Positions 24,268 to 49,674 of a DNA stretch of 64,000 nt are shown piece after piece (positions within the stretch are counted from its first letter, which is position 1; every line of letters starts with the position of its first letter). The translations under genes and the position numbers were made by a program. Under the pieces are notes generated by a model. That model saw nothing but the letters and a program-made list of their open reading frames with translations. It was not told the origin of the DNA and did no database searches. Origin of the DNA: Archangium violaceum (GTDB lineage Bacteria; Myxococcota; Myxococcia; Myxococcales; Myxococcaceae); contig NZ_CP069338.1 of assembly GCF_016859125.1 (NCBI RefSeq), forward strand, positions 6,697,501-6,761,500, written 5' to 3'.

Positions 24268-24628
24268 GGGGGCGACCTGGTTTCGACGGGGGCATGGAAG
24301 TTCGAGACGCGTGCCGAGCTTGTTGGTTGCTCGTAAAACCGCCGACAAAGACACAAAAGCCAACGACAACGTTGAGCTCGCGCTGGCTGCCTAACTAGCA
24401 GTTTCCTAGTGCGCGGTCCTCCCGCTCTCGGCCCGTGGGGTGGGGTAGGACCGTCATAATGCGGGCTGGCCGTCGAGGGTGCCTGGACTCTCGGCGGTGA
24501 GATCATCCAGGACCGGCTCACAGAATCCCGTCCGTGGGAGTCTGTGGGACGTAACAAACCGCGGACTACGCACGTAGGGTCAAAGGACGGAAGGCTTTCG
24601 GACGCGGGTTCGATTCCCGCCGCCTCCA
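24268..24628 (+). ncRNA. ssrA: Transfer-messenger RNA (tmRNA)
   Basis: The 5' end GGGGGCGACCTGGTTTCGAC and the 3' end with a T arm (CGGGTTCGATTCCCG) are diagnostic. GGGGGCG (24268-24274) pairs with CGCCTCC (24621-24627) as the acceptor stem, with one G-U pair. The tag reading frame at 24359-24394 encodes ANDNVELALAA followed by TAA. CCA is not encoded and must be added. tmRNA rescues stalled ribosomes with SmpB. Length is about 361 nt. Confidence 0.97.
24359..24394 (+). other. tmRNA proteolysis tag reading frame
   Basis: The codons GCC AAC GAC AAC GTT GAG CTC GCG CTG GCT GCC TAA encode ANDNVELALAA, ending in the Leu-Ala-Ala needed for ClpXP recognition. The resume codon is inferred by comparison with other bacterial tags that begin AND or ANDE. 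Confidence 0.85.
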
Positions 24629-24636
24629 CTCTTCAG

Positions 24637-40187: not shown

Positions 40188-42963
40188 TCATGTGCTTCTG
40201 CCCGGCTGCCCGAGGAGGTCGTCGACCACGAGCTTGGAGTGCATGAGGCAGATGCCAATGAAGTTGGTGATGGCGAACTCCCCCCGGCAGCACGTCGCGG
40301 GCGCGTAGAAGCGCGTGGACATCGGTGACTTCGTCCTCACCCGCAGCGTCTCCCGGTGGACCGAGAAGTGCTCGGAGGTATTGAACTCGAAGACGTCGCG
40401 CTTGCTGATGGTGGGGACCAGGGGCCAGCTGGACTTCAGGAGGCTCCGGCCCGTTCCCGTGGCGTTGATGACCACTTCGAAGGACTCCGGGGAGCGGTTC
40501 GCGTAGGTAGCGATGAAGCGGCCGGAGCGCTCGTCATACTCCACCGACTGGAACCGGGCGTGTATCTCCAGACGGCGGCAGGTGAACAACTCCAGCAACT
40601 TGCGTGCGTTCACGGCTGGGATCGCGGCGATGTACCGGAGCAGCTTCTTGTACTCGTTCGCTGGAAACGACTCCTTCTCCTCGATGCTCAAGAACGGCCA
40701 GATCGTCTCCATGCACTCGAGCATGGACATGACCAGCTTCTGCCAGTGAGCCAGGTTGTCCCCGTTCTGCTCGAAGGCGCGTTGGAGCTCGCTCCTCCCG
40801 TCCTTCGCGGAGGGCTCGAGGAAGTCGTCCGGAAGGGGGCGTCCATAGATCTCCTCCAGGGCCAGGTGCAGGGCCTGAAGATAGGCCTGGATGGGGTGCT
40901 GGCCCTGGTTCTGGATCCGGTTGAGGAGGGCCTCCGGGTTCAGGGAGGTGTGATTCTTGTCCATGTGGCTGCGGACGGCGGGGAAGAGTCCCTCCCTCGA
41001 CGCGACGGTGATTCTGTTGCGGTGCCCGGAACTGGCCAGGGTCAGCACGGCGTCGATGGCGCTCAGGCGGGAGCCAAGCACCAGGACCCGCGCGTTCCGG
41101 TCGATGCGCTCTTGCAGCAGGTGCTCCGGGTAGGGCGAGGAGAAGTAGTTCTCGTAGCGCTCCAGGTGGGTGAAGTTCTGCGTGGGTTGGTTTCCGATCG
41201 CGAAGACGACGTCCGTGGCGTGATACCGCTCCCCCTCCGCCGTCTCCAGCACACACTCCTCCGGGTTGTTGACGTGGATGTCGACGACCTCGCTGGGAAT
41301 GAAGCGCAGGACGACGCCGGCACGCTCGGCTCTCTCCCGGGCGGATGCCAGCTGCTCCTCCAGATAGAGTCCGAAGAGCCTCCGGGGAACAAAGGCGTTC
41401 TCCGTGACGGGGAAGAGGGCGCCAAACTCACCAGCCAGCCGCGCCTGGTTGGCTCGGGTCCAGGCGATGAAATGGCTGTCATCCTGGGGGTAGATCGACA
41501 TCATCCCGGCCGGGGTATTGGTCAGGCTCGAGTCGGATGTCGTGGAGTAGGCGAGCCCGGGGCCGAACCTCCGGGCTCGCTCGAAGAGGGTGATGTCGAC
41601 GTTGTCGAGCCGCCTCTCCAGGATGCGGTCCAGCAGCTGGACCACGATGGACGTGCCCATGAGCCCGGCGCCGATCACGCCGATCTGCTTCCGGGTGAGG
41701 CGGTCCTCCTTCATCGTGACGAAGGGGAAGTGCTTCAGGTGCCGGAAGTCCCGCTGAAGACTCTCGAAGTCCCTGCCATGGGCGATGAACTTCCCCATGG
41801 ATTTCGGGTAGGAGGAGCTGCTCTCGAGCACGTCCCCCTGCTTGACGCTCAGGGCGAGGTTCAGCCTCCCCCGGGTGACGGGCCGGGCGACCTCGGACAC
41901 CTCGCCTTGGCGAACCGGGATGTGCCCCCAGAAGGCCGAGCGCTGGGCAGGTTTGGGGACGGAGAAATCGAGCCCCAGCTCGAGTTTCAGCGCCAGGGAG
42001 AGCAGATTCACACCGGTCGCGTTCTCGTAGGCGCTGCAGGCGTCCACTCCCGGCGGCCGGGCTCCGGCCTCCAGGAGGAGCAGCTCACCGGAGTGCGTCT
42101 TGAGGACCTCCATGTGGACCGCGCCGTCCCCATGGCCCAGGGCCGCGAGGCACTGGCTGCCAAATGAGGTCAGTGTCAGCGTTTCAGGGTGCTGCGGCGG
42201 TAGGATGATGCTGCCGATGAGCTTCCCCCGGGAGGCCTCGGCGTTGGGAAAGAAATACTCCCCGCATCCGGAGAACACGACCTCGCCCCCCACGGAGCAG
42301 GAAGTCGCAATGGTAGGGTATTCCCTGGATGAACTCTTCGATCTCGAAGACGGAGTCGAAGCGCTGGAGGTGCTGCCGCACGCGCCGGAAGTCCTCGAGG
42401 CGCTTGACGATGTGCACCCCGGTGCCGTCCGCGGCATGGATGGGCTTGCAGACGAAGGGAATGCCGTAGGCGCGGCGCAGGTCCGAGAAGTAGGAATCCA
42501 CCTCGGACTCCAGGTGCCTGACGTCGAGCGGCTCGAAGCGGGGGGTCCGCAGGCCCGCCTGGAGCACCCGTTGCTTCATGAGCTTCTTGTCTCGGAACGG
42601 CAGGAGCATCTCCGGCCCGGTGCCAGGAATCTTGAGGGCTTCGCGCAGCTTGCTGACCAGGTAGTTGTCGAGCTCGGAGAAGGTGTGGAGGTGGTACTCG
42701 TCGCTGGGACGGTGAGAGCGCTCCGCCTGAATGGCTGCGGCAGTCGAGCTGACGCTCAATCCGGAACGGGGATTGTCGGGCTCCTCCTTCTCACAGACAT
42801 GGAAGTGGTCGATGTGCTCGCGGACATGCGGCGGTATCCGCTCGAGCCGATTCGCATACTCCAGGAGGACGATGCGAATCCTGGCATGGGATTGGTACTT
42901 GAAGGAGAAATCGCAGATTTCCAGATGAGAGGACGACACCAGGAATAGAGTTTTCGTTCGCAT
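40188..42963 (-). CDS. ATP-grasp / FAD-NAD(P)-binding fusion protein, interrupted by a frameshift
   Basis: Reading from ATG 42963, the first frame gives an ATP-grasp ligase: KxMKQRVLQAGLRTPR-like RDKKLMKQRVLQAGLRTPR, then IPFVCKPIHAADGTGVHIVK. It runs into a frameshift at a run of six C (42286-42291, plus strand). Removing one base restores HCDFLLRGGEVVFSGCGEYF and the rest of the ATP-grasp fold (MEVLKTHSGELLLLEAGARP). A FAD_NAD_binding_9 enzyme follows from about residue 340: QIGVIGAGLMGTSIVVQLL, then LERARRFGPGLAYST-like FERARRFGPGLAYSTTSDSS and VLVLGSRLSAIDAVL. Combined length is about 924 residues. It may be a peptide/amide-forming and oxidising enzyme; chemistry unknown. The break may be real or a sequencing error. 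Confidence 0.75.
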
Positions 42964-46560: not shown

Positions 46561-46702
46561 GGTTCCTCGTGCGGGTATTCACCGGCGCCTCTGGATGAAG
46601 CGGCGGACCCCGCTGATTCTCTCCCCAAAAACCCTCTTCCAGGGCCGCGACGTGCCTTGCGACAGCAGACCCGCGCTGGAGCGCCCTCGACACAGGTGGA
46701 TG

Positions 46703-46731
46703 TTGCTTCATTCGCCATGATGGGGGACGAT
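46703..46731 (+). promoter_or_regulatory. Candidate promoter of the exporter transcript
   Basis: TTGCTT (46703-46708) and GACGAT (46726-46731), exactly 17 bases apart, lie 23 bases before the leader-peptide start. The -35 is good, the -10 weak. Confidence 0.4.
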
Positions 46732-46754
46732 GCGCTCATCACCGGGGTATCGAC

Positions 46755-46784
46755 ATGGATAGCGCTAAGTCCGCAGACCATTGA
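46755..46784 (+). CDS. Nine-residue leader peptide of the exporter gene
   Basis: ATG at 46755 with GGGG 7 bases upstream encodes MDSAKSADH and stops at TGA. The known leader of integron cmlA is also nine residues (MSTSKNADK, from memory), and the two share Lys5, Ala7 and Asp8. In cmlA-type control, chloramphenicol stalls the ribosome on this peptide and the downstream gene becomes translated. Here the stop is followed immediately by a strong hairpin and then by the exporter gene. I consider the similarity in length, residues and position too specific to be chance. Confidence 0.7.
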   Translation: MDSAKSADH

Positions 46785-46785
46785 G

Positions 46786-46815
46786 CCGCAACAACAACGG
46801 AAGTCGTTGTTGCGG
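46786..46815 (+). promoter_or_regulatory. Attenuator hairpin A after the leader peptide
   Basis: CCGCAACAAC (46786-46795) pairs perfectly with GTTGTTGCGG (46806-46815) around a 10-base loop, starting one base after the leader stop. A ribosome stalled on the last leader codons would cover the 5' arm and open it. Confidence 0.65.
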
Positions 46816-46862
46816 CCATCTGCTTTAGACATCCACGAGTAACGTCCTGGAGAGGCAGATCG

Positions 46863-46888
46863 CCGCCAAATGTCCCTCATTTGCGCGG
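46863..46888 (+). promoter_or_regulatory. Hairpin B covering the exporter ribosome-binding site
   Basis: CCGCCAAATG (46863-46872) pairs with CATTTGCGCGG (46878-46888) with one bulged C. The 3' arm contains most of GCGGG (46885-46889), the only ribosome-site-like sequence at proper distance from ATG 46899. The 3' arm of hairpin A (TTGCGG) could pair instead with the 5' arm of B, which would free the site; that switch is inference. Confidence 0.5.
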
Positions 46889-46898
46889 GTATATCGTC

Positions 46899-48152
46899 AT
46901 GCCTCAAAAAAACCGTCCAGTCTGGACTCATTCGCTTTCTGTTGCACTGCTGTTGATGGCCCCATTCGACCTGCTGGCGTCGATGGCCATGGACCTCTAT
47001 CTGCCGGTGGTGCCGGAAATGCCGGCCATTCTCGCCACCTCGCCCGAGGTCGTTCAGTTGACGCTGAGCCTCTACATGGTCGTCCTGGGCGCGGGGCAAC
47101 TCGTGTTCGGGCCGATCTCCGACAGGATGGGGCGCCGCCCCGTCCTCTTCGGCGGTGCGGTCCTGTTTGGCATTGCCTCCTTCCTGCTTGCTGGCACCAC
47201 GTCCGCGGCGGCCTTCGTGAGCCTTCGTATCCTCCAAGCCCTGGGGGCGGCAGCGGCACTCGTTGCCACCTTCGCGACGGTGCGCGATGTCTATGCGGAT
47301 CGCCCGGAAGGAGCGGTCATCTACAGCCTGTTCGGTTCGATGCTGGCGTTCGTGCCGGCACTGGGACCGGTCCTCGGCGCCCTGATTTCCGATCATCTCA
47401 GCTGGCGTGCCAACTTCATCCTGCTGGGTGTCCTCGTTGGTATCGCCGCGCTGAATGCGTTGCCGAAGTGGAACGAAACGAGGCCCCTGAACGGAATCAG
47501 GCCGCATGTGGCGTTCGGGCCGATTCTCACCGACCTTCCTTTCTGGAGCTACACGCTCGGGTTCAGCGCGGCGATGGGCGCGTTCTTCGTCTTCTTCTCG
47601 ACGGCACCCCGTGTCCTCATCGATCGAGTCGGCTTTTCGCAGCTCGGCTTCAGCCTTGTGTTCGCCACGGTGGCGCTCGTCATGATCGCGACGACACGGT
47701 TTGCCAGGCTGTTCGTGGCGCGGTGGGGGAGTGCCGGGAGCCTCGTTCGTGGGATGGGACTGTTGCTCCTGGGGGCGGCACTCCTGGCGACTGGGGAGCT
47801 GACCGCCGCTCCGTCCTTCTGGGTCTTCATCCCACCGATGTGGCTCATCGCGATTGGCATCGTCTTCACCTGTTCGGTGACGGCGAATGGCGCACTCCAG
47901 GACTTTGGCCATGTCGCCGGCACGGCGACCGCCCTCTATTACTGCATCGAAAGCCTCATCGTCGGTGCGGTGGGGACGGCACTGGTGGTTCTCTTGCCTG
48001 GCGACACGGCATGGCCGCTGGTTGCCTATTGCACGCTCATGGCGCTCGCCACGCTGGGTTTCAGGAGGTGGGTGGATTCTAGAAGGCAGGGGGAACCTCC
48101 CATCCTGCATCAGAAGGCCCAGCCCACGGCCAGCGACGTGCGCTCTCATTAG
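46899..48152 (+). CDS. CmlA/FloR-type chloramphenicol exporter (MFS, DHA1)
   Basis: A 417-residue 12-helix drug:H+ antiporter. It closely follows CmlA along its length: SLSVALLLMAPFDLLASMAM, LYLPVVPEMPAIL, GAGQLVFGPISDRMGRRPVL (motif A), RILQALGAAAALVATFATVR, FVFFSTAPRVL, VSQLGFSL-like GFSQLGFSLVFATVAL, FDHVAGTxTA-like FGHVAGTATALYYC and TAWPLVAYC. Predicted to export chloramphenicol/florfenicol. ATG 46899 matches the CmlA N-terminus. Expression is probably induced through the leader upstream. The alternative is a general Bcr/CflA exporter, but the CmlA-specific segments favour the former. Confidence 0.85.
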   Translation: MPQKNRPVWTHSLSVALLLMAPFDLLASMAMDLYLPVVPEMPAILATSPEVVQLTLSLYMVVLGAGQLVFGPISDRMGRRPVLFGGAVLFGIASFLLAGTTSAAAFVSLRILQALGAAAALVATFATVRDVYADRPEGAVIYSLFGSMLAFVPALGPVLGALISDHLSWRANFILLGVLVGIAALNALPKWNETRPLNGIRPHVAFGPILTDLPFWSYTLGFSAAMGAFFVFFSTAPRVLIDRVGFSQLGFSLVFATVALVMIATTRFARLFVARWGSAGSLVRGMGLLLLGAALLATGELTAAPSFWVFIPPMWLIAIGIVFTCSVTANGALQDFGHVAGTATALYYCIESLIVGAVGTALVVLLPGDTAWPLVAYCTLMALATLGFRRWVDSRRQGEPPILHQKAQPTASDVRSH

Positions 48153-48167
48153 GCAACCGCGAGGGGG

Positions 48168-48199
48168 AGGGAGCGGGGCGGCACGCGGCCTCGCTCCCT
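48168..48199 (+). terminator. Possible terminator of the exporter gene
   Basis: AGGGAGCG (48168-48175) pairs with CGCTCCCT (48192-48199), 16-base loop, 15 bases after the exporter stop. There is no T tract. Confidence 0.4.
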
Positions 48200-48310
48200 T
48201 CGGGCCGCGGGCCGCGCTCGAGGTGCTCGGGTCGGGTAGGCAGGCTGCACACGCCTGCCCAGGCCGCCCTCCCAGGCGCCGTGTTTTCCGTTGCTCGCCG
48301 GCGTCCAGAT

Positions 48311-48332
48311 GGTTAGGCTCCTAATCAGATGG
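48311..48332. promoter_or_regulatory. MarR operator overlapping the marR start codon
   Basis: A 22-base site with core GGTTAGGCTCCTAATCA and imperfect dyad TTAG/CTAA. It overlaps the ATG of the MarR gene and recurs, inverted, before the next gene (48851-48872), with three mismatches. Repetition in front of both genes strongly suggests it is the regulator's binding site. Confidence 0.65.
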
Positions 48333-48835
48333 CTCTCGAACTGAAACAGCTCCCGGAGCACGAGGCCCTCCAGAAGGATGCGGAGCGCTACCCGGGGTCG
48401 GATGTGTCGGCCGTGGAGACGTGCCTCGCCCTGCTGCGGGTCTCGGGAGACGTGGAGGCGGCCTACGGGACGCACTTCGCGCGGCATGGCCTGTCGCAGG
48501 CGCGCTTCATCGTCCTCATGACGTTGCAGCGGGAGGAGGAGCTGCGCCCGGCGGAGCTGGCCGAGCGCACGGGGGTGACGCGCGCGACGGTAACGGGCCT
48601 GCTGGACGGGCTGGAGAAGGAGGGCCTCATCCTGCGGAGGGCGCACGCGGAGGATGGGCGCATGTCGTTGGTGCGGCTGTCGGCCAAGGGGCGCCAGCGG
48701 CTGGAGGGAATCCTCCTGGACCACTATCGCCGCACGGCCGCGCTGATGGCGGGCCTGTCCACCGAGGAGCGCCAGCACCTCACCCGACTGCTCGCGAAGG
48801 TCGCCGCCGGAATTCCCCACGTCCGGGACCCCTGA
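48329..48835 (+). CDS. MarR-family transcriptional regulator
   Basis: A 168-residue winged-helix regulator. Dimer helix at the N-terminus, HTH at LRPAELAERTGVTRATVTGL, and the wing with the DxRxxxxxLT-like AEDGRMSLVRLSAKG. It usually represses its own operon and responds to phenolic or antibiotic ligands. The adjacent downstream monooxygenase gene carries the same operator, so they form a regulon. The ATG lies inside the operator, so the mRNA leader must be very short or absent. Confidence 0.93.
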   Translation: MALELKQLPEHEALQKDAERYPGSDVSAVETCLALLRVSGDVEAAYGTHFARHGLSQARFIVLMTLQREEELRPAELAERTGVTRATVTGLLDGLEKEGLILRRAHAEDGRMSLVRLSAKGRQRLEGILLDHYRRTAALMAGLSTEERQHLTRLLAKVAAGIPHVRDP

Positions 48836-48850
48836 GTCTCTTTTTTTTGA

Positions 48851-48872
48851 CCAGATGATTAGGAGGCTAACC
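48851..48872. promoter_or_regulatory. MarR operator before the monooxygenase gene
   Basis: The 22 bases CCAGATGATTAGGAGGCTAA plus CC are the inverted copy of the site at 48311-48332 (19 of 22 positions equal). It lies 2 bases before the monooxygenase ATG and overlaps its AGGAGG ribosome site, so bound protein could block transcription. Confidence 0.65.
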
Positions 48873-48874
48873 AC

Positions 48875-49219
48875 ATGGAAGTGACCACCACGAGCATCGA
48901 GCCCGGCAGTGGGCTGTGCACCCTCATCAACGTTTTCGCCGTGGAGCCCGAACGGCAGGCGGAGCTGGTGAAGCTGCTGGAGAACGCGACGGAGCAGGTG
49001 ATGCGGCACCTGCCGGGCTTCGTCTCGGCGAACATCCACCGGGGCCTGGATGGCACTCGTGTGGCCAACTACGCGCAGTGGGCGAGCCGTGAGCACTTCG
49101 AGGCCATGCTGCGCAACCCGGAGGCGCAGCATCACATGCGGGCCGCGGCGGCACTGGTCCAGAAGTTCGAGCCGCACCTCTATGAGGTGGTCTCCGTGCA
49201 CGCAAGGAGTGTTCCGTGA
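48875..49219 (+). CDS. Antibiotic biosynthesis monooxygenase (ABM) domain protein
   Basis: A 114-residue dimeric ferredoxin-like protein of the ABM family: LINVFAVEPERQAELVKLLE, GFVSANIHRGLDGTRVANYA and WASREHFEAMLRN. Members are cofactor-free monooxygenases on quinones/polyketides or haem-degrading enzymes. It has a strong AGGAGG site within the operator. The control by MarR suggests induction by a phenolic or quinone-like compound. Its stop overlaps the next start (GTGA). Confidence 0.88.
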   Translation: MEVTTTSIEPGSGLCTLINVFAVEPERQAELVKLLENATEQVMRHLPGFVSANIHRGLDGTRVANYAQWASREHFEAMLRNPEAQHHMRAAAALVQKFEPHLYEVVSVHARSVP

Positions 49220-49674
49220 GGGAGCGGCGCTATTGGGTGGCGGTGGCCTCGTGCGACCACGTGCGCACGGGCGTGGAGGGGGGCTTCGCGCAGGCCTGCC
49301 ACGGGAAGGCCGCGCCGCTGCGCCGCGTGGCTCCGGGGGATTGGGTCATCTACTACTCGCCGCGGAGGCACTTCGAGGGTGAGGAGCCCTGCCAGGCCTT
49401 CACGGCCATCGGCCGCGTGGAAGAGGCACCGGTGGAGCAGGTGGAGATGGGTGGAGGCTTCAAACCCTTCCGTCGGGCGGTGGCCTTCCTCCCGTGCCGC
49501 GAGGTGCCCATCCGCCCGTTGCTCGGGCGGTTGAGCTTCATCGAGGACGTGCGGCGCTGGGGTTACATCTTCCGCCGTGGCCACTTCGAACTGCCCGAGC
49601 AGGACTTCCGGCTGCTGTCCCGGGAGATGCTGGGCGAGGAGCAGCTCCACCTGTCCGTCCAGGTAGACCTTTGA
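49216..49674 (+). CDS. EVE-domain protein (UPF0310)
   Basis: A 152-residue single EVE domain, a PUA-related fold that binds modified bases in DNA or RNA. Features: RYWVAVASCDHVRTGVEGGF, RRVAPGDWVIYYSPRRHF, FTAIGRVEEAP and FSFIEDV-like RLSFIEDVRRWGYIFRRGHF. Related EVE proteins appear in restriction of modified DNA, but this one stands in a MarR-controlled operon. GTG start overlaps the ABM gene stop. Confidence 0.88.
   Translation: MRERRYWVAVASCDHVRTGVEGGFAQACHGKAAPLRRVAPGDWVIYYSPRRHFEGEEPCQAFTAIGRVEEAPVEQVEMGGGFKPFRRAVAFLPCREVPIRPLLGRLSFIEDVRRWGYIFRRGHFELPEQDFRLLSREMLGEEQLHLSVQVDL

Follow-up and report, generated by a model that had tools for sequence, protein, structure and literature searches.

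A candidate CmlA-type translational attenuator ahead of a chromosomal phenicol exporter gene in the myxobacterium Archangium violaceum

How does a chromosomal phenicol exporter gene of a myxobacterium come to carry a short leader and hairpins that resemble those of mobile resistance genes, and could these elements form a switch that is set by the drug itself? We examined this for a 64,000-nt stretch of Archangium violaceum DNA (assembly GCF_016859125.1, contig NZ_CP069338.1, positions 6697501-6761500 of the forward strand; hereafter the window), which belongs to a genome of 12.68 Mb on a single contig. A preliminary description, made from the letters alone, had raised the question; here we follow it through the exporter, the leader, the pairings between them and the history of the gene.

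The exporter gene and its leader

The gene at the locus encodes an exporter of the CmlA/FloR kind, as had been proposed: its product scored 617.7 bits against a cut-off of 450 with the family model (NF033134, NCBIfam), whereas it stayed below the exception cut-offs for FloR proper (519.9 bits versus 700, NF000219) and for CmlA proper (413.9 bits versus 875, NF000509). Pairwise identities are 65% with a Sinorhizobium meliloti pSymB protein, 60% with FloR and 51% with CmlA1. FloR residues D23 and R109, reported in the accessible text of PMC5890775 as contributors to phenicol recognition, have their counterparts in D24 and R110 of the window exporter. The chromosomal location of leader and exporter was likewise borne out. 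A search for sigma-70 promoters at the locus returned none, and Rfam gave no match around it at E up to 1, nor, at E up to 0.1, around a second, truncated locus of the same genome. A tmRNA gene with the tag peptide ANDNVELALAA lies at window positions 24268-24629. The features of the locus are as follows.

46699-48200, plus strand: the whole unit of leader, switch, exporter and 3' inverted repeat, about 93% identical to its counterparts in two relatives (genomes G045 and G072)
46744-46747, plus strand: GGGG, probable ribosome site of the leader, seven bases 5' of its ATG (from sequence; the family consensus is G-rich there)
46755-46784, plus strand: leader reading frame MDSAKSADH, with ATG at 46755 and stop TGA at 46782-46784 (from sequence and family comparison)
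46785-46795, plus strand: arm 1 (GCCGCAACAAC), 5' half of hairpin 1 (from sequence and covariation)
46806-46816, plus strand: arm 2 (GTTGTTGCGGC), 3' half of hairpin 1, whose GCGGC (46812-46816) is also complementary to arm 3
46818-46823, plus strand: ATCTGC, which pairs with GCAGAT at 46855-46860
46855-46866, plus strand: arm 3 (GCAGAT C GCCGC), whose GCCGC could pair with arm 2, or its CCGC with arm 4
46863-46888, plus strand: hairpin 3:4 (CCGC/GCGG and AAATG/CATTT), just 5' of the exporter start (from alignment)
46899-48152, plus strand: CmlA/FloR-family phenicol exporter, 417 aa (from family model and alignment)
48169-48198, plus strand: GC-rich inverted repeat 3' of the exporter, a possible transcription end, also present in G045

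The leader, with nine codons and a ribosome site of its own, is present as described before, and the cmlA leader that had been given for comparison, MSTSKNADK, was confirmed for CmlA1 in a plasmid record that we fetched. To place the leader among its relatives, we collected 122 loci, 115 of which matched the exporter at E 1e-30; leaving a distant Bcr/CflA paralogue (L002) out of the leader count gave 114 family loci. These represent close relatives, since the genome-contig scan behind them comprised the best 80 of 381 confirmed relatives and the plasmid part comprised 5 fetched of 3586 matching plasmid records, and some loci are one record entered twice, with identical rows. Within this set of close relatives (best 80 of 381 in the scan), 112 of the 114 loci carried a leader directly 5' of the hairpin, and two Myroides loci (L090 and L091) had no such leader. 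The leader pattern had been widened to accept TAT or TTC at the stop position after two loci, L053 and L092, were read; these are Rhizobium leaders that have lost their stop codon (TAT, TTC) and keep the rest of the control region. All 29 myxobacterial loci of a search across the order also carried the leader, and conservation among orthologues, on which the preliminary description had made its reading depend, was thus found.

While the leader peptides of the 112 close-relative loci vary (65 distinct peptides of 6 to 10 residues), the third codon from the end (codon -3) encodes Ala in 82, Ser in 27 and Thr in 3, and no other residue. Codon -2 is Asp in 103 of these 112 loci and codon -5 is Lys in 62, and the last codon is mostly Glu (38), Lys (36) or Arg (28). 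Among the residues said to be shared with the cmlA leader (Lys5, Ala7 and Asp8), the conserved position is thus that of Ala7, as Ala, Ser or Thr, and Lys5 is not conserved. The exporter tree requires a minimum of nine changes at codon -3, all among A, S and T, and 20 at codon -5; leader length changed six times, and despite these changes the leader end stays at the hairpin. Three Xenorhabdus loci (L067, L078 and L083) have the leaders furthest from CmlA (MAPALQTVR and similar) yet encode Thr at codon -3, and in two of the three the first pair of hairpin 1 is compensated. In a plasmid floR2 gene (L014), the leader is that of CmlA (MSTSKNADK), a sign that its control region may be recombinant.

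On the CmlA leader, the ribosome arrests with its P site at Asp8 and its A site at Lys9 (PMC11190716, accessible text), and chloramphenicol arrest is best with a penultimate Ala and weaker with Ser or Thr (PMC8987054, accessible text). Together with the restriction of codon -3 to A, S or T in all 112 loci, this register and this preference indicate that the residue kept in the leader is the one that the drug reads. On the window leader, a ribosome is predicted to stall with its P site at Asp8 and its A site at His9, Ala7 then being the penultimate residue. Two features of a cmlA-type attenuator, a leader with a ribosome site before a hairpin and an Ala, Ser or Thr at a fixed distance from that hairpin, were therefore found.

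Pairings in the control region and a proposed switch

The stretch 46740-46930 folds 5.06 sd below its dinucleotide shuffles, none of 200 being as low. Hairpin 1, described before as ten perfect pairs starting one base past the leader stop, is present and in fact comprises 11 perfect pairs (46785-46795 with 46806-46816) directly after the stop. On its two strands together, the 64-kb window contains two short frames (6-12 codons) with a perfect hairpin of 10 bp or more (loop 3-20 nt) starting 0-2 nt behind them; the one other than the leader, at window position 41518, has ten codons and a perfect 10-bp hairpin within 2 nt.

We aligned the control regions of the 112 loci as 102 distinct segments plus the truncated copy, leaving out L021 and L044 because of their long spacing to the assigned exporter start, which gave 101 rows; a smaller alignment (A3) of 45 of 50 chosen segments served for a covariance model (R1). 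In the 101 rows, 99.8% of the cells of hairpin 1 are paired, with 61 double-change cells, and its covariation score was reached by none of 500 shuffles and lay above all six slid versions; on other measures it stood out less, its four pairs with double changes being reached by 19 and its further pair types by 342 of the 500 shuffles. Shuffles of this kind, here and for the pairings below, ignore the relatedness of the rows. In Myxococcus, G-C pairs take the place of A-U pairs in this hairpin.

The complementarity between arm 2 and the 5' arm of the second hairpin, which had been pointed out before, was confirmed (GCGGC 46812-46816 with GCCGC 46862-46866). The 2:3 structure as a whole has 94.1% of its cells paired and 35 double-change cells, above 500 of 500 shuffles. 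All 35 fall in the ATCTGC/GCAGAT helix; this helix can form alongside hairpin 1 without competition and would keep arm 2 beside arm 3. In the switching core GCGGC/GCCGC, each pair is complementary in 98-101 of the 101 rows and changes on both sides are absent. As the core is nearly invariant, its pairing rests on conserved complementarity instead of covariation; such invariance would be expected of strands that each have two partners. The arm 2/arm 3 complementarity of a cmlA-type attenuator is therefore present, with a covarying helix adjoining it.

Hairpin 3:4 (46863-46872 with 46878-46888, ahead of the exporter ATG at 46899) has 94.7% of its cells paired and 12 double-change cells, a count reached by 3 of 500 shuffles, and its covariation score was reached by 89 of 500. 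Slid controls fell below the true register in cells paired and in covariation score for hairpin 1, 2:3 and 3:4 alike. RNAalifold on the whole alignment returned hairpin 1 and, in place of hairpin 3:4 or 2:3, a 4-bp pairing of columns 116-120 with 194-197, which renders the closed state less certain than hairpin 1. Co-variation in both hairpins, named beforehand as a check, was thus clear for hairpin 1 and hardly seen for hairpin 3:4.

We folded the RNAs with a mask up to 7 nt into arm 1, mimicking a ribosome stopped at the codon before last, and found a shift from 3:4 to 2:3 pairing. Over the 101 sequences, mean 3:4 pairing fell from 0.73 to 0.18 and mean 2:3 pairing rose from 0.015 to 0.74 (medians 0.89 to 0.05 and 0 to 0.88, respectively); in the window, the values went from 0.98 to 0.08 and from 0 to 0.89. 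Some sequences, e.g., S. meliloti L011, did not shift, and hairpin 3:4 was not predicted by folding for CmlA1 or FloR. Accessibility of the start region rose in the family mean from 0.32 when free to 0.43 when masked and exceeded that with an upstream mask in 73 of 103 cases, and in the window there was no rise (0.44 to 0.42). With 30-60 nt of coding sequence added, masking did not open the start codon in the window RNA (unpaired 0.23 to 0.04 and 0.34 to 0.34). In the window, the exporter has a weak ribosome site. The second hairpin said to cover this site is found just 5' of the ATG and is conserved, with slight covariation and without a predicted opening of the start in the window.

In view of these comparisons, we consider it likely that the window unit is a phenicol-inducible translational attenuator of the CmlA type that controls the exporter. 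The stall, the switching and the induction that we infer for this organism would proceed as follows. Without drug, the leader would be translated and released and hairpin 1 (arms 1:2) would form, and arm 3 could pair with arm 4, which would close the exporter start region. At sub-inhibitory chloramphenicol, a ribosome would stop at Asp8, owing to Ala7 as the penultimate nascent residue, and would cover arm 1, whereupon GCGGC of arm 2 could pair with GCCGC of arm 3 and lengthen the ATCTGC/GCAGAT helix; arm 4 would be set free and the exporter made. Attenuator and exporter would be inherited and moved as one unit.

Other readings of this region have to be weighed against translational attenuation. 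Hairpin 1 might instead be a terminator that a stalled ribosome keeps from forming, and induction of relatives has indeed been seen as mRNA (accessible text of PMC6617876 and PMC8256890), with a terminator-like pattern called at 46803-46816; the alignment, however, contains no conserved U tract 3' of hairpin 1, the three terminator-like sites compare with 1.5 (sd 1.3) in shuffles of the region, and the arm 2/arm 3 complementarity would be left unexplained, so that we regard such transcription attenuation as unlikely. Conservation might also act at the level of the RNA only, through a structure for mRNA stability or for silencing of translation, with a leader that is no drug sensor here. Ala at codon -3 is encoded by GCA in 70 of 71 aligned Ala cases, and in 79 of 101 rows CAGA of the leader has a possible partner in UCUG, yet this pairing shows no covariation (its score was reached by 424 of 500 shuffles) and was not adopted. 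Moreover, Ala or Thr is kept at codon -3 in nine aligned rows whose next codon has lost GA, and the known CmlA leader stalls at this register (PMC11190716, accessible text); we judge an explanation by RNA-level conservation only to be highly unlikely. Some RNA-level constraint may add to the conservation of codon -3, because its second base, an invariant C in the 101-row alignment, could also pair with a G 3' of hairpin 1, and part of the A/S/T pattern may thus have this source. The C is kept in six rows that lack the partner G.

Control by the neighbouring MarR-family gene (48329-48835), with the leader as a relic of transfer, would account for a MarR-type regulator adjoining the exporter, but the exporter has other neighbours in G045 and G072, in G045 it is on a different contig from the MarR block, and the MarR block also occurs in three genomes in which the search returned no intact exporter (G043, G044 and G046). 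We rejected the MarR gene as an exporter partner, as the two are unlinked in relatives, and such control appears extremely improbable. Besides the translational attenuator that we favour, a second short frame overlapping the gene start had been offered as a possible further layer. The frame exists, one base off the reported 46869-46955 (ATG at 46870, stop ending at 46956), and its role as a further layer was rejected, as it is not conserved across the family: its start codon is present in 79 of 101 rows and its length varies, 34 having no stop in the 300 bases read, 26 having 4 codons, 6 having 28 codons and the rest differing. In the window clade it spans 28 codons in the window, L095, L015 and L020 and 24 in L096 and the truncated copy; since the frame overlaps conserved exporter codons, these lengths are no argument for function.

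Linkage, phylogeny and movement of the unit

Within the window's genome, model R1 matched the window locus and 5605109-5605246 on the minus strand. Across the class, the attenuator was found at E 0.01 in 32 of 147 genomes, of which 29 have the exporter, one (G046) a decayed copy, and two (G009 and G064) weak matches; the exporter itself occurred in 29 of 145 genomes of the order at E 1e-60. Among Hyphomicrobiales, 12 of 347 genomes contained the attenuator (E 1e-4), and the exporter lay just downstream in the same 12 (E 1e-80). A phylum-wide search with the model added one weak match (G173, E 8e-4), and the S. meliloti plasmid gave two weak attenuator matches. No strong match lay ahead of any other gene in the genomes searched, under the strict filters used for the many-genome searches. 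As the model was built in part from sequences of these genomes, the search tests linkage and not sensitivity. Taken together, sequence comparison shows the leader, its register, hairpin 1, the arm 2/arm 3 complementarity and, in the genomes searched, the linkage to the exporter gene as shared features of this family. One record named Comamonas sp. KCTC 72670 (L082) encodes an exporter protein identical to that of a myxobacterial genome (G107) and is probably mislabelled.

In a careful tree of 44 proteins, with CmlA1 used as the root and a broken exporter (L122) left out of the trees, the window gene, its two close relatives and Sorangium/Polyangium formed one group (97/91), and the Myxococcus exporters formed a separate clade (100/100). 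FloR and Nitratireductor aestuarii came together (99/96) inside a Hyphomicrobiales gene set (98/94), and CmlA1 formed a long branch. On this phylogeny, the window lineage is not the source of FloR. The proposal that a native chromosomal version would suggest the origin of the control therefore holds as to the chromosome but finds no support as to a myxobacterial source of the mobile genes: FloR nests in Hyphomicrobiales, the window copy looks relocated and CmlA1 sits on a long branch.

Relocation is read from the flanks. The unit is shared over 46699-48161 with G072 and over 46696-48200 with G045, and the flanks beyond it showed no match among the three when 14-kb stretches were compared; a few more bases to the left are alike in G045, G072 and the truncated copy. 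Elsewhere in the family, Rhizobium loci had the right flank in common with their reference in 13 of 13 cases and over 1 kb of the left flank in 10 of 13, Mesorhizobium loci had both flanks in common in 3 of 7 comparisons, the Myxococcus clade the right flank in 8 of 24, and the Sinorhizobium/Microvirga set shared flanks in 3 of 10; sharing was absent in Sorangium/Polyangium (0 of 2) and in the window set with G045 and G072 (0 of 2). These comparisons indicate that the gene is resident in some groups and has often moved in others, and, judged by its surroundings, the window copy looks relocated. Its left neighbour, a P450 gene (45306-46627), and its right neighbour, the MarR block (48284-49650), are separated by 1.9 Mb in G043, and in G045 and G046 the two are on different contigs; being unlinked in these genomes of the same genus, they mark the window locus as a rearrangement junction.

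We found no integron, flanking repeat or known element that explains this movement. An integron cassette was rejected, the best integrase-family match in the genome scoring 82.7 bits against a cut-off of 265, and the core sites GTTRRRY and RYYYAAC were absent from the plus strand at 46651-46760 and 48141-48300. Repeats of 9 nt at the unit ends were absent from the window and G045, with one inverted in G072; such an end repeat arose in 69 of 200 shuffles of the window ends.

Broken copies were also present. A truncated second copy in the same genome (5605016-5605300, minus strand; L009:2017-2301), is 91% identical; in it, the leader (MDTAKSADH) and the control region are followed by about 30 exporter residues, beyond which the sequence diverges. 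An association with a tRNA was rejected, since ARAGORN did not call the adjoining 3' end that had looked tRNA-like by eye. The decayed exporter of G046, a genome of the same genus (C25, L155:1330-1600), retains a leader of the Myxococcus type (MGTTASADE) and a hairpin, and these run directly into a later exporter part; G054 has only parts of an exporter.

Comparison with relatives suggests that pump and switch are an old soil-bacterial unit which mobile resistance genes have inherited. More fully, and with a fair degree of probability, exporter and attenuator would form one ancient and indivisible unit that regulates itself and belongs to soil bacteria (Myxococcota, Hyphomicrobiales, Xenorhabdus and others), with a four-arm competition switch and a leader that keeps the residue read by the drug; mobile floR would have come from Hyphomicrobiales, its control already attached at the time of capture, and in the window's part of the myxobacteria the unit would still be moving between chromosomal sites as a bare 1.5-kb piece, leaving broken copies behind. 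The comparison would then point to resident genes of soil bacteria, and not to clinical mobile elements, as the source of drug-sensing control. The one-residue rule for the leader is a candidate rule that can be checked in a cell-free system.

Comparison with known attenuators

In cat-86/ermC-type attenuators of Gram-positive bacteria, a drug-stalled ribosome on a leader opens the resistance gene; these genes and leaders are unrelated to the window unit. Among the papers listed in searches of the accessible cmlA/floR literature, no title or displayed abstract opening describes the present attenuator in chromosomal myxobacterial or rhizobial genes.

Functional data for a myxobacterium concern MXAN_2566, a CmlA/FloR gene of Myxococcus xanthus DK1622, a locus tag that we found in the literature in PMC6617876 alone. 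According to the accessible text of that paper, it was the gene most raised in chloramphenicol-adapted cells (log2 5.60), and a deletion strain showed no growth for 7 days in liquid medium with the drug and can grow after a dormant stage. The induction refers to mRNA levels and was not linked to a leader, a word absent from the main text as accessible. Like MXAN_2566, the window gene is a chromosomal CmlA/FloR-family exporter of a myxobacterium, but it belongs to a different clade. Strain AM003 (L054) carries the leader MGSTVSADE and the same control region, and its gene is likely the MXAN_2566 orthologue. DK1622 is a genetically tractable host that is known to rely on a gene of this kind.

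With the cmlA1 attenuator, which resides on an integron cassette (Stokes and Hall 1991, as cited in later papers), the window unit shares a nine-codon leader ending in Ala-Asp-X, a hairpin right at the stop, the arm 2/3 complementarity and a phenicol exporter. Unlike cmlA1, it is chromosomal, without an integron integrase over the cut-off or core-site motifs near its ends, its exporter is 51% identical, and the AAGGAG ribosome site of cmlA is absent. The floR attenuator is similar in its leader, MGNSKSADK in the record that we fetched, in the same arm GCCGCAACAAC and in an exporter that is 60% identical. In the accessible text of PMC5890775 and PMC8256890, the floR hairpin is described as lying clear of the floR ribosome site, and one of the two calls its role unclear. 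The arm 2/arm 3 alternative is a candidate for the missing link between that hairpin and the ribosome site: where the floR papers had no such connection, the alignment provides a conserved candidate route from arm 2 to arm 3.
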